Positions 1-6,119 of a stretch of 64,000 bases of DNA are shown piece after piece. How positions within the stretch are numbered: position 1 is the first letter of the stretch; the number at the start of each line of letters is the position of its first letter. A program made the translations under genes and the position numbers. This stretch comes from Devosia sp. GTDB lineage: Bacteria > Pseudomonadota > Alphaproteobacteria > Rhizobiales > Devosiaceae. The notes under the pieces were generated by a model that made no database searches, was not told the origin of the DNA, and saw nothing but the letters and a program-made list of their open reading frames with translations. Location of the stretch: NCBI GenBank assembly GCA_015234425.1, contig JADGNE010000003.1, positions 1-64,000 of the forward strand, in the 5' to 3' direction.

Positions 1-684
1 CGCGCTCGCGAGCGGCTTGACCACCTCAGTTACACCACGTCCCGGGACACGACCCTTGAAGTAGCCGAGGGGGAGGCGGTATCGGCGTTCGATCTCGTTG
101 AGAACAACGAAGCTGCGCGCTGTCATGGGCAGAAGTTGACCGGTGCACCACTTCATTAGAGTGCGCTGGTCTTGCGCAGCTCCGCGGGCCGCCAAAGAGA
201 GGTAAAGGTGCCGAACGCTATCGCCATGCCGGCGCATGTGCAGGTCGAGGGCCGTTCTGAACTCGGCAGGATCATCCCACTCTGTAAAGAGCGGCTCAGG
301 GAATTCGACGATCGACTTTGGCGCTGGACCTCGGCGCGCTCGCTCTTTCGGAGCCGACCTCTTATGAGTCGATGGCTCCTGATTGCTCTCAGGTCGCAAA
401 GGTGCGTCACGCTCTTGCACGCCGACCGATCTGGCGACGGCATCCAGCACCGGTTTGATCTGCAGCCGCGCGGCCTTCAGTCTTTCTACTTCGATACCAG
501 TAACATCTGCCAGCGAAGTCCAATCGATTCCGCTTCCTCTGTAAGGAGGGTAAGCCATTATCTCGAGCAGGCCGACGAGGTAGTTCGCCATCAACTCGAT
601 CTCGCCATCAACAAGGACGGATTTCAGCCTTAGGCGACAGAATTCCGAGATCATCCGAGGGGTCAGGGACCGGGTCTTTGGCAA
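1..684 (-). CDS. Probable integrase-like protein, N-terminal part (runs off the left edge)
   Basis: An open frame reads leftward from a TTG at 684 to the window edge, giving 228 residues without a stop. The start is supported by a Shine-Dalgarno AAGGAGG at 691-697, six bases before the TTG. Residues 45-55 read YPPYRGSGIDW and residues 200-212 read RRYRLPLGYFKGR, after a short helix-turn-helix-like stretch. From memory these patterns occur in the N-terminal part of large (about 700 residue) rhizobial proteins annotated as site-specific integrases. The catalytic tyrosine-recombinase domain would lie outside the window, so this assignment is an inference. It is the gene closest to the island end that points inward, which suits a mobility gene. 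It could instead be an uncharacterised island protein. Confidence 0.55.
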   Translation of the reverse strand, partial: MPKTRSLTPRMISEFCRLRLKSVLVDGEIELMANYLVGLLEIMAYPPYRGSGIDWTSLADVTGIEVERLKAARLQIKPVLDAVARSVGVQERDAPLRPESNQEPSTHKRSAPKERARRGPAPKSIVEFPEPLFTEWDDPAEFRTALDLHMRRHGDSVRHLYLSLAARGAAQDQRTLMKWCTGQLLPMTARSFVVLNEIERRYRLPLGYFKGRVPGRGVTEVVKPLASA

Positions 685-690
685 CAGTAT

Positions 691-697
691 CCTCCTT
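691..697 (-). promoter_or_regulatory. Ribosome binding site fixing the TTG start at 684
   Basis: On the minus strand AAGGAGG stands six bases upstream of the TTG at 684. It is the main reason for calling that rare start codon. The 180-bp gap between this gene and the rightward gene at 866 must hold two divergent promoters; I see no clear operator there. Confidence 0.6.
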
Positions 698-865
698 GAT
701 GTAGAGGGTTGCCCATTGGACGAGTCACCGCCTTTGGCAAGACGAACTTCGAGAGAACAATTAGACTTTCCCCAACCACACCGTGGGTGGCTACCCGACG
801 CACTTTCGATTGCAGAGTACCTTCCCCAACCCAGCCAAGTCATGCATCCTGGCGCCGGGGGTGCC

Positions 866-1711
866 ATGGCCGATCGGACAAGACAGGGCGAGGATTGGAA
901 TCCTTTCGAGCTCGACGCGATTATCGCCGACTATTTCGCCATGCTCGGCGAAGAGTTGGCCAGGCGTCCATACGTCAAAGCGCATCACCGTGCCATCCTC
1001 ATGCAGCAGACGGGTCGGTCGGCGGCATCGATCGAGTTCAAGCACCGAAACATCTCAGCAGTGCTGCAGGAGCTTGGGCTTCCATGGATCTGGGGCTACA
1101 AGCCTGCGCTGAATTATCAGGATGCTCTGTTCGACGCCGTGGACCGCTACCTCAGCGGACATCGCGAAGCCGTTGAGCAGCAGTCAACCCTGGTCGCTCC
1201 CACCGTCGCTTTTCCTGACGACGTATTCACAGCCATGCCGGTATCGGCGCGTCGACCGCGCCGCGCCAGCCTGGAGCGACTCGTCCGCAAGTTCGATCCC
1301 GTCGAGCGCGATTTTAGAAACAGGCAGCTGGGTCGAGCAGGGGAGGAGTTCGTCGTCGACATAGAACGACGTCGCCTGATCGCCCAGGACAGGACGGACT
1401 TGGCGGGCAAGGTCCGATGGGTGGCGATGGAGGACGGCGATGGCGCGGGCTTCGACATCCTATCGTTCGATCCTGCAGGCAAGGAACGCCTGATCGAGGT
1501 GAAGACCACCAATGGCGCCGCGCAGACACCCTTCTTCATGACCCACAATGAAATGGCGGTGGCAGCTGAGCGGCCTGAACATTGGCACTTATACCGCGTC
1601 CACCTGTTCTCGCAGCAGCCGAAGATCTTCACCGCTCGGCCGCCGCTTGAGCAGGTCCTCAGGCTGGACCCGGAGACATGGCGCGCTGCGCCGGCGAACT
1701 TACCCACCTGA
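866..1711 (+). CDS. DUF3883 domain protein, PD-(D/E)XK nuclease-like
   Basis: A 281-residue protein. The C-terminal half (from about residue 149) matches my recollection of the DUF3883 (protein NO VEIN, C-terminal) family: an RAGEEFV segment, then GFDILSF near residue 195 and IEVKTT near residue 210. The D...E-x-K spacing is that of a PD-(D/E)XK nuclease fold, often present in restriction and defence proteins. The N-terminal half (residues 8-100) is helical and not recognised. ATG 866 is preferred because it is followed by conserved-looking sequence; in-frame TTG 716 and ATG 842 lie upstream but have poor ribosome sites. It lies in an island cut into comM and is followed 42 bp later by a small gene on the same strand. 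Whether it acts as a nuclease or only binds DNA cannot be told from sequence. Confidence 0.7.
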   Translation: MADRTRQGEDWNPFELDAIIADYFAMLGEELARRPYVKAHHRAILMQQTGRSAASIEFKHRNISAVLQELGLPWIWGYKPALNYQDALFDAVDRYLSGHREAVEQQSTLVAPTVAFPDDVFTAMPVSARRPRRASLERLVRKFDPVERDFRNRQLGRAGEEFVVDIERRRLIAQDRTDLAGKVRWVAMEDGDGAGFDILSFDPAGKERLIEVKTTNGAAQTPFFMTHNEMAVAAERPEHWHLYRVHLFSQQPKIFTARPPLEQVLRLDPETWRAAPANLPT

Positions 1712-1753: not shown

Positions 1754-2086
1754 ATGGCTCAGGTTCTAGCTGCCGCGATGACGGCGACACTAACAGGTCT
1801 TGGCTGGATCATTTCCAGATGGCTGAAGCGCGACGCGCTGACGGAGCGTGTCGATCGCCGCCTTAAGCTCATCGCATTGCATCAGCGGATGAGGGAAGCC
1901 GGTCTGACACTGAACGACCTCGAAAGGCTGGAGGAGAGGCTAAACGATTTTCCTCCAGGCGTGGTGCCCGCCGTAAAAGTCGGCAGCACATCAGCTGCGG
2001 AAACGTTCAGGGAAACTGAACACTCAAAGGCGATCGATGCTCGAAGCAAAACATTGGTTTCTGGAGCACAACTTTGGTGTTTTTAA
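1754..2086 (+). CDS. Small membrane-anchored hypothetical protein at the island end
   Basis: A 110-residue protein with a near-ideal Shine-Dalgarno (AAGGAGGATCATC before the ATG). Residues 4-23 form one hydrophobic segment, followed by a basic, helical stretch (residues 24-65). The last third is low in recognisable features, because the frame runs through the terminal repeats of the mobile element: its TAA stop at 2084-2086 lies inside the terminal palindrome. No family was recognised. It probably forms a two-gene unit with the DUF3883 gene 42 bp upstream. The strong ribosome site argues for translation; the C-terminal 20 or so residues are probably not under protein-level selection. Confidence 0.6.
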   Translation: MAQVLAAAMTATLTGLGWIISRWLKRDALTERVDRRLKLIALHQRMREAGLTLNDLERLEERLNDFPPGVVPAVKVGSTSAAETFRETEHSKAIDARSKTLVSGAQLWCF

Positions 2087-3019
2087 CACATTGGGCTGGA
2101 ATTCGGGCAACTCATCGAGAAAGAGCACGCCATTATGGGCGAGGCTGGCCTCCCCCGGCCGGACGCGCAGGCCGCCACCGACAAGAGCGGCCATGGACGC
2201 CGAATGGTGAGGCGCGCGGAAGGGTCGACGATCCGAGAGCACCCCGCCGACCAGCTCTCCTGCCACCGACTGGATCATCGACACATCAAGCAGTTCGCGC
2301 GGGCCAAGCGGCGGCAGAATGGAAGGAAGGCGCTGGGCCAGCATGGTTTTTCCCGAGCCGGGCGGACCGATCATGAAAAGGTTATGACCACCTGCGGCGG
2401 CCACTTCGAGGGCTCGGCGCGCCAGAGGCTGCCCGCGAATATCGGAGAGATCGGGTAAACTGCCGGGCTCGGCGCTGTGCCGACGCGGTTTTGGACGCGC
2501 CTGGAGCTGGTGCCCGGTGAGGTGGTTGACGAGCGCGAGGAGGCTATCGGCGGCGATGATGTCGATGCCTTCGCCGGCCCAGGCGGCTTCCGGGCCGGAG
2601 TCGCGCGCGCAGATAATGCCCATGTCCCGCCCCAGAGCGGAGATGGCGGCGTTGAGAATGCCGCCGACGTGAGCGAGACGGCCATCGAGCCCGAGTTCGC
2701 CAAGCACGACGAAATTGTCGAGTGCGTCCTGCGGGATGGCACCCATGGCGGCCATCAGCCCGAGGGCAATGGGGAGATCATAGTGGCTGCCCTCCTTGGG
2801 CAGATCGGCAGGAGCGAGATTGATGGTGATGCGCTTGGGTGGCAGGCCGAGCCCGGAGGCCACGAGCGCGGCGCGAACCCGCTCGCTCGATTCTTTGACG
2901 GCCTTATCGGGCAGGCCGACCATGAGAAATTTCGCGATGCCCGGCGCAATCTGCACCTGGACGTCGACCGGCACGGCATCAATGCCCTGAAATGCGACAG
3001 TGGCAACACGCGTAACCAT
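2024..3019 (-). pseudogene. comM: comM (yifB) Mg-chelatase-like AAA+ ATPase, truncated by an insertion
   Basis: Residues 1 to about 309 are a normal ComM/YifB N-terminus: the Lon-like ChlI domain (VQVQIAPGIAKFLMVGLPDK near residue 20-40), Walker A GPPGSGKT (218-225) and GVLFLDELPEF (about 297-307). The family is usually about 510 residues long. After PEFQPN the sequence turns into unrelated residues and ends at a TGA at 2024, inside the island terminus. The C-terminal part of the AAA+ module and the zinc region are missing, so the gene is expected to be inactive. ComM is a branch-migration helicase acting in natural transformation. comM is a known integration hotspot for Tn6022/AbaR-type elements in Acinetobacter. 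Start ATG 3019 gives the conserved MVTRVATVAFQG opening. Confidence 0.88.
2043..2090. mobile_element. Right end of the mobile island, with terminal repeats
   Basis: comM homology on the minus strand stops at the codons for PEFQPN. The plus strand just left of that point reads GTGTTTTTAACAC (2077-2089), an inverted repeat GTGTT/AACAC, then A at 2090, so the element would end in ACA as Tn7-like elements do. Two direct repeats lie inside it: GGAGCACAACTTTGG at 2063-2077 and GAAGCAAAACATTGG at 2043-2057 (12 of 15 identical, 20-bp period), resembling transposase-binding repeats. The other end is outside the window, so target duplication cannot be tested. Confidence 0.55.
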
Positions 3020-3205
3020 GCTCGAAAATGCCCCCGGCCTCAATGAAAGCTAACAGAAGCTTAACAAAGGCTCAAGAACGGAGAGCGAACGCAATATGGT
3101 CTGTTAACCATGCCTGCTGCCACATTGGTTACCCTAAAGCTCCATTAACTTTGCCCGGCGCAATTGAATGTAAATTTTACTCTTGCGTGCCGAGTACTTG
3201 CGTTC

Positions 3206-5732: not shown

Positions 5733-6119
5733 TCAGGCGCCCGCGTCAAATGCATTGATGAGATGGCGCGGCCAGCGGCCAGGTGCAAGGAAAATAACGT
5801 CGAACCGGCAGGACTTTTCCGCCTCGCGCGGATGGCGGGAAAGCCAATGCTCGGCGGCACGGATGATCCGGGCCTGGTTGATGGCTTCAAGTGCCTCGGC
5901 TTCGCTCGCCGCTTTGAGGCGGGATTTGACCTCCACGAAGACGATGGTGCCGCCGCGCTCGGCAACGACGTCGATCTCGCCGCCGGGTGTTTTGTAGCGG
6001 CGATCCCGGATGCGGTAGAATTTGAGCTGCAGGAAGAAGGCGGCCAGCGCTTCGCTGCGCTGACCATAGAGATTGGCTTTTTGTCTTTTATTCCCGGGCC
6101 TTGAGAGCGAGGGCGGCAT
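5733..6119 (-). CDS. yraN: YraN family (UPF0102) nuclease-fold protein
   Basis: 128 residues with the UPF0102 signature: GEID at 47-50, FVEVK at 61-65 (a PD-(D/E)XK-type active-site pattern), then an [14 protein letters not shown] helix. Biochemical function is not firmly known. The start at 6119 lies inside rsmI (32-bp overlap) but has a perfect AAGGAGG a few bases upstream, embedded in rsmI codons, so the overlap is real. The next in-frame features start too late to keep the domain intact. It sits between rsmI and gshB, the standard neighbourhood. Confidence 0.92.

Follow-up and report, generated by a model that had tools for sequence, protein, structure and literature searches.

The comM gene is a known insertion hotspot, as Tn6022, Tsy and a CAST have already been published at it. 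The passages of PMC10293859 on comM report that a conserved 10-bp stretch of its Walker B region is the target both of Tsy and of Tn6022, the latter encoding a 369-aa TniQ and a 498-aa TnsF, and that TnsF and Tsy are tyrosine-recombinase derived. In the same passages, a small TniQ is given as a hallmark of elements whose selector is a separate protein, a size above 400 aa being taken to suggest direct targeting. Type I-B1 CAST also uses comM, via crRNA, according to part of PMC11406308. For Acinetobacter, excerpts of PMC11472951 associate inactivation of comM by AbaR and other elements with low transformation, and AbaR25 is described in a section of PMC3691203 with a 5-bp ACCGC duplication in comM. 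Literature searches for comM with Tn7-like, Walker B, Alphaproteobacteria or TnsF found nothing on the subject beyond PMC10293859 and PMC11406308; the excerpts of PMC8649781 and PMC7508600 held nothing bearing on the comM question, and that of PMC12955456 concerned other genes.

Here we analyse a stretch of 64,000 nucleotides (hereafter the window) that starts with the first base of contig C3 in the 74-contig draft of a Devosia sp. genome (G000) and opens within an island interrupting comM. Compared with the comM hits described so far, the apparent differences are the host group, a large TniQ in the fuller relatives and the lack of TnsF.

Results

The comM gene is split after its Walker B codons

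In a profile search, the ComM/YifB open reading frame at 2024-3043 on the minus strand aligns with positions 4-313 of the 499 positions of TIGR00368 and also matches PF13541 and PF01078, the score of 331 bits lying below the 362 of the family cut-off for a full-length match. The comM 5' part itself occupies 2094-3019 (minus strand) and extends through the Walker B codons (DELPEFQP), the final residues of the reading frame being element sequence. As far as the comM of the same-species genome G054 reaches before its own break, the two are 99.8% identical. The initial annotation had described comM as normal up to Walker B and foreign DNA as following to the window edge, which proved accurate, with the foreign stretch at 1-2088 and the window edge corresponding to the end of contig C3. 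The leftover comM fragment, whose existence that description left to be established, was found on contig C57 at 117373-117957 (minus strand), where it covers TIGR00368 positions 308-499 with 174 bits and no internal stop. The window comM is hence a split gene with its second half on another contig. The whole G000 genome was searched with the ComM C-terminal domain and TIGR00368, and no second, intact comM was recovered; with the interruption falling immediately behind Walker B and no other copy found, loss of ComM function is likely.

A target duplication and Tn7-like ends flank the island

Read in the direction of comM, the junction in the window is ...GAATTCCAGCC-CAATG-TGTTAAAAACACCAAAG (read to a different extent, GAATTCCAGCC-CAATG-TGTTAAAAACACCAAAGTTGTGC), and that on C57 is ...GAGGTCAGCA-CAATG-TGCTCGATAGCC (to a different extent, TTTGGTGAGGTCAGCA-CAATG-TGCTCGATAGCCTGCG). 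Both have the 7 bp CAATGTG in common, of which five are taken as the target duplication because the elements of two other genomes of the family, G028 and G037, have TG...CA ends. The junction and the 5-bp duplication that the initial annotation advised looking for were thereby located, one copy of CAATG at 2089-2093 (minus strand) and the second beside the comM 3' part on C57. Its further proposal of a mobile island interrupting comM immediately behind Walker B is supported; a 5-bp duplication accompanies the insertion, and the ends and relatives of the island are Tn7-like.

Tn7 carries multiple transposase sites at its ends. The left terminal inverted repeat of the island, TGTTAAAAACACCAAAG (2072-2088, minus strand), matches the right end at 12 of 17 positions, the corresponding 17-bp ends having 11 identities in G028 and 13 in G037, and the ends are homologous among the three genomes. 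Two TnsB-site-like repeats of the CCAAAGTT type follow at positions 12 and 32 from the left terminus, namely CCAAAGTTGTGCTC (2064-2077) and CCAATGTTTTGCTT (2044-2057), both on the minus strand, and the same two positions are occupied in G028 and G037. At the right end all three genomes have such repeats at positions 12 and 107; a further one is present at 84 in G000 and G028, where G037 has a variant. Each repeat count was attained by 0-3 of 5000 mononucleotide shuffles of the 150-base stretches, and we infer that the repeats represent TnsB sites. Features of the Tn7 clade, i.e. a 5-bp duplication and inverted ends with several spaced putative transposase sites, are accordingly present in three genomes.

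The duplicated 5 bp, CAATG in G000, CCCAG in G028 and CCAGC in G037, start within 4-6 bases of the last of the Walker B codons (DELPEF) in all three cases seen, occupying bases 4-8 after these codons in G028, 5-9 in G037 and 6-10 in G000 (up to two bases further, given the seven common bases). The different offsets indicate three separate insertions, and the Walker B region of comM has thus received at least three insertions in one bacterial family.

The single locus returned by a pattern search for a Walker B junction of comM next to ACTTTGGT lies on a contig of Anaerolineales; it was discarded, as neither comM nor tns similarity was detected there by tblastn. The pattern fits the left ends of G000 and G028 and not that of G037, and the collection searched may omit near relatives.

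Two fuller relatives carry Tn7-type transposition genes

The survey of comM covered 136 genomes of the family to which G000 belongs; a match at E<=1e-25 was obtained in 131 of them. In G028 and G037 the gene is split at the same place as in the window (profile positions 3-308/310-499 and 212-324/307-499, respectively), by elements of 36.6 kb and 39.5 kb. Towards the right end of both islands run four adjacent genes encoding a TnsA-like endonuclease, TnsB, TnsC and TniQ, with 57-61% identity between the two genomes. The TnsA-like protein (222 aa in G028) matches NF033179 below the cut-off in G028 (E 1.2e-6) and PF08722 at the cut-off in G037 (E 9.7e-6) and with E 8.2e-4 in G028. TnsB, of 797 aa in G028, matches TnsB chains of the PDB (E 2e-27), and TnsC matches PF05621 (TniB) with E 2.5e-15 and 1e-9 in the G028 and G037 elements. 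TniQ, of 634 aa in G028 and 632 aa in G037, matches PF06527 (E about 1e-14) together with a weak helix-turn-helix match; it had no match in the PDB. The gene after tniQ encodes 413 aa in G028 and 646 aa in G037, and as no mutual similarity was found between these products, the elements have no TnsF-like partner in common. Neither TnsF nor TnsE was recognised in the two elements, the absence of TnsF being judged from family-library searches and from the lack of a common extra gene, and not against a TnsF sequence.

TniQ is a candidate target selector

In a drawn sample of 397 genomes of the order, 12 encode a TniQ of the G028/G037 kind at E<=1e-30, G028 and G037 not being among them. Ten of these 12 keep a full-length comM, and their elements therefore sit elsewhere. 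The other two, G643 and G670, belong to a different family of the order, and their comM is interrupted elsewhere, near profile positions 280 and 290 (L245, L247; L246); the TniQ stretches retrieved from them contained no comM. TniQ identity to G028 is 57% in G037 and, expressed as means over 80-residue windows, ~40% in G618, ~37% in G749 and ~33% in G705. At the level of the class, a TniQ relative was detected at E<=1e-20 in one genome of a drawn sample of 385, with 26% identity. G028 itself holds a second element (L229, G028:C2:41000-60999) with similar right-end repeats, whose TnsB is 42-43% and whose TniQ is 41% identical; its right end abuts an open reading frame near 6026, not comM. Related elements with a different TniQ thus sit elsewhere, which fits TniQ in the unproven role of selector. 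By an analogy that draws on size, position and correlation, the large, TnsD-type TniQ would read comM DNA.

A tyrosine-recombinase-like protein is more likely cargo

Close to the contig edge, 55-690 (minus strand) encodes the N-terminal ~220 aa of a protein of ~755 aa (the ORF1 family), cut by the end of an insertion sequence. Residues 2-220 are the sole part found in the whole of G000, so the remainder has been lost or lies in sequence absent from the assembly. Full-length relatives have 754-785 aa, a ~755-aa member being found at L164:10934-13201 (minus strand). The C-terminal region of the family is tyrosine-recombinase-like, in that an alignment reading finds R...HxxR...Y-like residues in the full-length relatives; one member gives a sub-threshold Phage_integrase match, the G028 member has no Pfam match, and the family profile has no match in the PDB. 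In G044, G095 and G127 one contig carries both a member and a TnsB relative. Members also occur on 104 plasmid records (searched with a partial query), with no comM annotation in the two stretches inspected.

Such a protein might itself select comM, as an analogue of TnsF or as a Tsy-type recombinase. It is present, cut or remnant in all three Walker B elements, the recombinase-like residues are kept in its full-length relatives, and a tyrosine-recombinase ancestry is what part of PMC10293859 describes for TnsF and Tsy. We nevertheless regard this reading as unlikely, since 21 of the 136 family genomes carry the family and only three of them within a comM element, since it also occurs on plasmids, and since G037 retains just a 64-residue remnant. 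Moreover, Tsy is described in those passages without inverted ends, whereas the comM elements here have ends and a duplication. With 18 of the 21 carriers harbouring it outside any comM element, the role of a comM-specific selector was set back, and the occurrence in comM elements of three genomes only is why we treat the family as cargo, retaining TniQ as the preferred selector.

The window island resembles a decayed remnant

Apart from the truncated ORF1-family gene, the island part of the window contains a small open reading frame of 110 aa at its left end (1754-2086, plus strand), weakly similar to the left-end reading frames of the G028 and G037 elements, and a cargo gene for a NOV_C/DUF3883 protein (716-1711, plus strand; true start probably near 866). 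The latter matches PF13020 (E 3.8e-22) and, with 363 bits over residues 57-326 of 331, the candidate phage-defence family PDC-S36 of PADLOC. Relatives of this protein occur in 1207 of 72,556 plasmid records, all below 60% identity. On a Paracoccus seriniphilus plasmid (L019), a DUF3883 relative adjoins genes for TniB and TniQ, and this cargo may therefore travel with Tn7/Tni elements more widely.

The first 54 bases of the window (1-54), at the contig edge, are probably the end of an IS256-family insertion sequence. They are common to seven contig ends of G000, each diverging beyond, and share 83.9% identity with a Mesorhizobium repeat that lies ~0.1 kb ahead of a gene for an IS256 family transposase. 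The assembly was therefore probably interrupted at the window edge by the end of a multicopy element of the IS256 type. Among the contig ends of G000, one IS256-type end and a second one similar to it are each represented by seven copies; judged by eye, several flank pairs share duplications of 8-9 bp, and the flank at C3 has no partner, which suggests that an IS-linked event, either a deletion or a rearrangement, took place next to the comM island.

The tnsA, tnsB, tnsC and tniQ set seen in G028 and G037 was not seen in G000, where the island interior is unassembled and contigs C58, C59 and C62 consist of N, such that genes taken as lost could be hidden. Searches with PF09299 and PF06527 returned nothing in G000, and as the control genomes were equally silent, TnsB and TniQ protein searches were also used. 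TnsB gave no match at E<=1e-30 in G000 or in G054, and TniQ gave none in G000 with either PF06527 or the TniQ proteins. The TniB, TniQ and IS256 transposase proteins of plasmid loci likewise had no match in the G000 contig pieces searched. With no TnsB or TniQ match obtained in G000, the island in the window has the appearance of a Tn7-like element that has decayed to a remnant.

In G054, which is a single contig, both comM flanks lie on one chromosome about 9.4 kb apart. Its comM is 99.8% identical to that of G000 up to residue ~231, and is followed by ~9.1 kb of other DNA; a 246-base piece of the island (window 548-793, 99.2% identical; L169) is then fused to comM from residue ~347, again at 99.8% identity. 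This fusion to the 3' part suggests deletions within the island in G054, and the two genomes are most simply reconciled if the island was present in their common ancestor and was eroded differently in each.

A second break lies just before Walker A

In at least 12 of the 136 family genomes, comM is broken just before Walker A, at profile positions ~210-220. Among the matches listed, both halves were found in G024, G035, G037, G038, G067, G085, G119, G121, G126 and G129, and one half in G054 and G095, the latter with a deletion joining comM residue ~52 to the Walker A site. The junction loci are L165-L182 and L230-L233. All counts of split comM are lower bounds among the matches listed; two genomes were not scored as insertions, G027 because its pieces adjoin with a break in frame and G006 because its pieces overlap at contig ends, and other partial matches, e.g. 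in G013, G052, G061, G096, G105 and G127, were left out.

A large serine recombinase is encoded within 2 kb of the junction in eight of these 12 genomes, Pfam-checked in G024, G035, G037, G067, G121 and G129 (Resolvase, Recombinase, zinc ribbon) and identified by similarity alone in G085 and G126; none was found in the junction stretches of G038, G119, G054 and G095. The recombinases of G121 and G129 are 87% identical, those of G037 and G129 being otherwise 35-45% identical to the others, which suggests that the Walker A site is an attachment site for several integrases. In G037 both the Walker A and the Walker B sites are occupied. Among the papers listed by literature searches we found no report of the Walker A site of comM, which is weak evidence of absence.

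Discussion

Based on the split gene, the element ends and the machinery of the fuller relatives, we consider it very probable that the left end of a Tn7-like comM island lies in the window, and that this island was placed by TnsA, TnsB and TnsC with a large TniQ and has since decayed. In the proposed mechanism, TnsA and TnsB would cut the TG...CA ends through CCAAAGTT-type sites, in the manner of Tn7-type cut-and-paste, with TnsC as the presumed ATPase regulator. A single large TniQ of the TnsD type would recognise conserved comM DNA and place the element, leaving the 5-bp duplication. The G000 element would since have lost its transposition genes, likely in an IS256-associated manner, and may persist as a passive island with at least one candidate defence gene.

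Alternatively, the island could be an element of the Tn6022/AbaR family, with TniQ and TnsF, that has reached this bacterial group. The likeness is considerable, as the comM Walker B region is interrupted in G000, G028 and G037 alike, the 5-bp duplication parallels that reported for AbaR25 in the PMC3691203 section, and the TnsA-B-C-TniQ set is that described for Tn6022 in part of PMC10293859. However, G028 and G037 each have one TniQ of 632-634 aa against the 369 aa given there for Tn6022, nothing resembling TnsF or TnsE was recognised, and what follows tniQ is unlike in the two genomes. The short TniQ operonic with TnsF that typifies the Tn6022 group, compared here by description, is absent from G028 and G037; the host group is another one, and no tns genes were found with the window copy. 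We therefore judge membership of that family improbable. The initial annotation had proposed either wider use of the Tn6022/AbaR hotspot or convergence on it: wider use, through three independent insertions, and the Tn7-like nature stand, while the large TniQ of the fuller relatives, with no TnsF or TnsE recognised, makes the island look like another Tn7-like lineage converging on the site and not like Tn6022/AbaR.

It is very improbable that ordinary IS activity or deletion broke comM and that the Tn7-like look arose by chance. An IS256-type repeat does lie at the contig edge, repeat ends are found at many contig ends, and rearrangement is evident at the G054 locus. As an account of the comM junction itself, however, this explanation is strongly contradicted by the matching duplication, by the inverted ends, by repeats that are spaced alike in three genomes and by the tns genes in two. 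An assembly artefact joining unrelated sequence is just as remote, for although the draft has 74 contigs and the comM halves lie on different ones, the junctions are ~2 kb inside C3 (window side) and ~0.77 kb inside C57 (3' side), and the single-contig G054 keeps both flanks with a piece of the island joined to comM.

Returning to the Tn7-like island placed by a large TniQ, we think it rather probable that this lineage has independently evolved a one-protein reader of the comM Walker B region, beside the solutions of TnsF and of the guide-RNA CAST, and that diverse serine recombinases use Walker A in addition, making a single gene a double landing pad that is hit at both places in G037. Elements without common descent strike comM at two places, both of them coding for catalytic motifs. 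Should the Walker B stretch recognised by TnsF also be read by a TnsD-type protein, comM would represent a clear case of convergent target choice, and it could be asked whether the gene is chosen for its conserved DNA or because loss of ComM protects the element from removal by transformation recombination. An element that has a large TniQ, and whose ends and target are known, also offers a small, testable targeting system.

Among the other described systems, Tsy resembles the island in targeting the Walker B region of comM, and the island also has a tyrosine-recombinase-like gene. Tsy differs, however, in having a YRec-HTH-TnsF set and no detectable inverted repeats, a combination that is not matched here, where inverted ends and a duplication are present, tns genes occur in relatives, and ORF1 lies mostly outside comM. 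Type I-B1 CAST, compared with the comM island by description, is likewise a Tn7-like element converging on comM, but uses a guide RNA. Canonical Tn7 shares with the G028 and G037 elements TnsA, TnsB, TnsC, a large TniQ/TnsD-type protein, the 5-bp duplication and multiple end sites; in contrast to Tn7 with TnsD and attTn7, no TnsE was recognised, and insertion takes place inside comM, interrupting the gene, not beside glmS. The comM island lineage is thus apparently distinct from the published ones and converges with them on a known hotspot.
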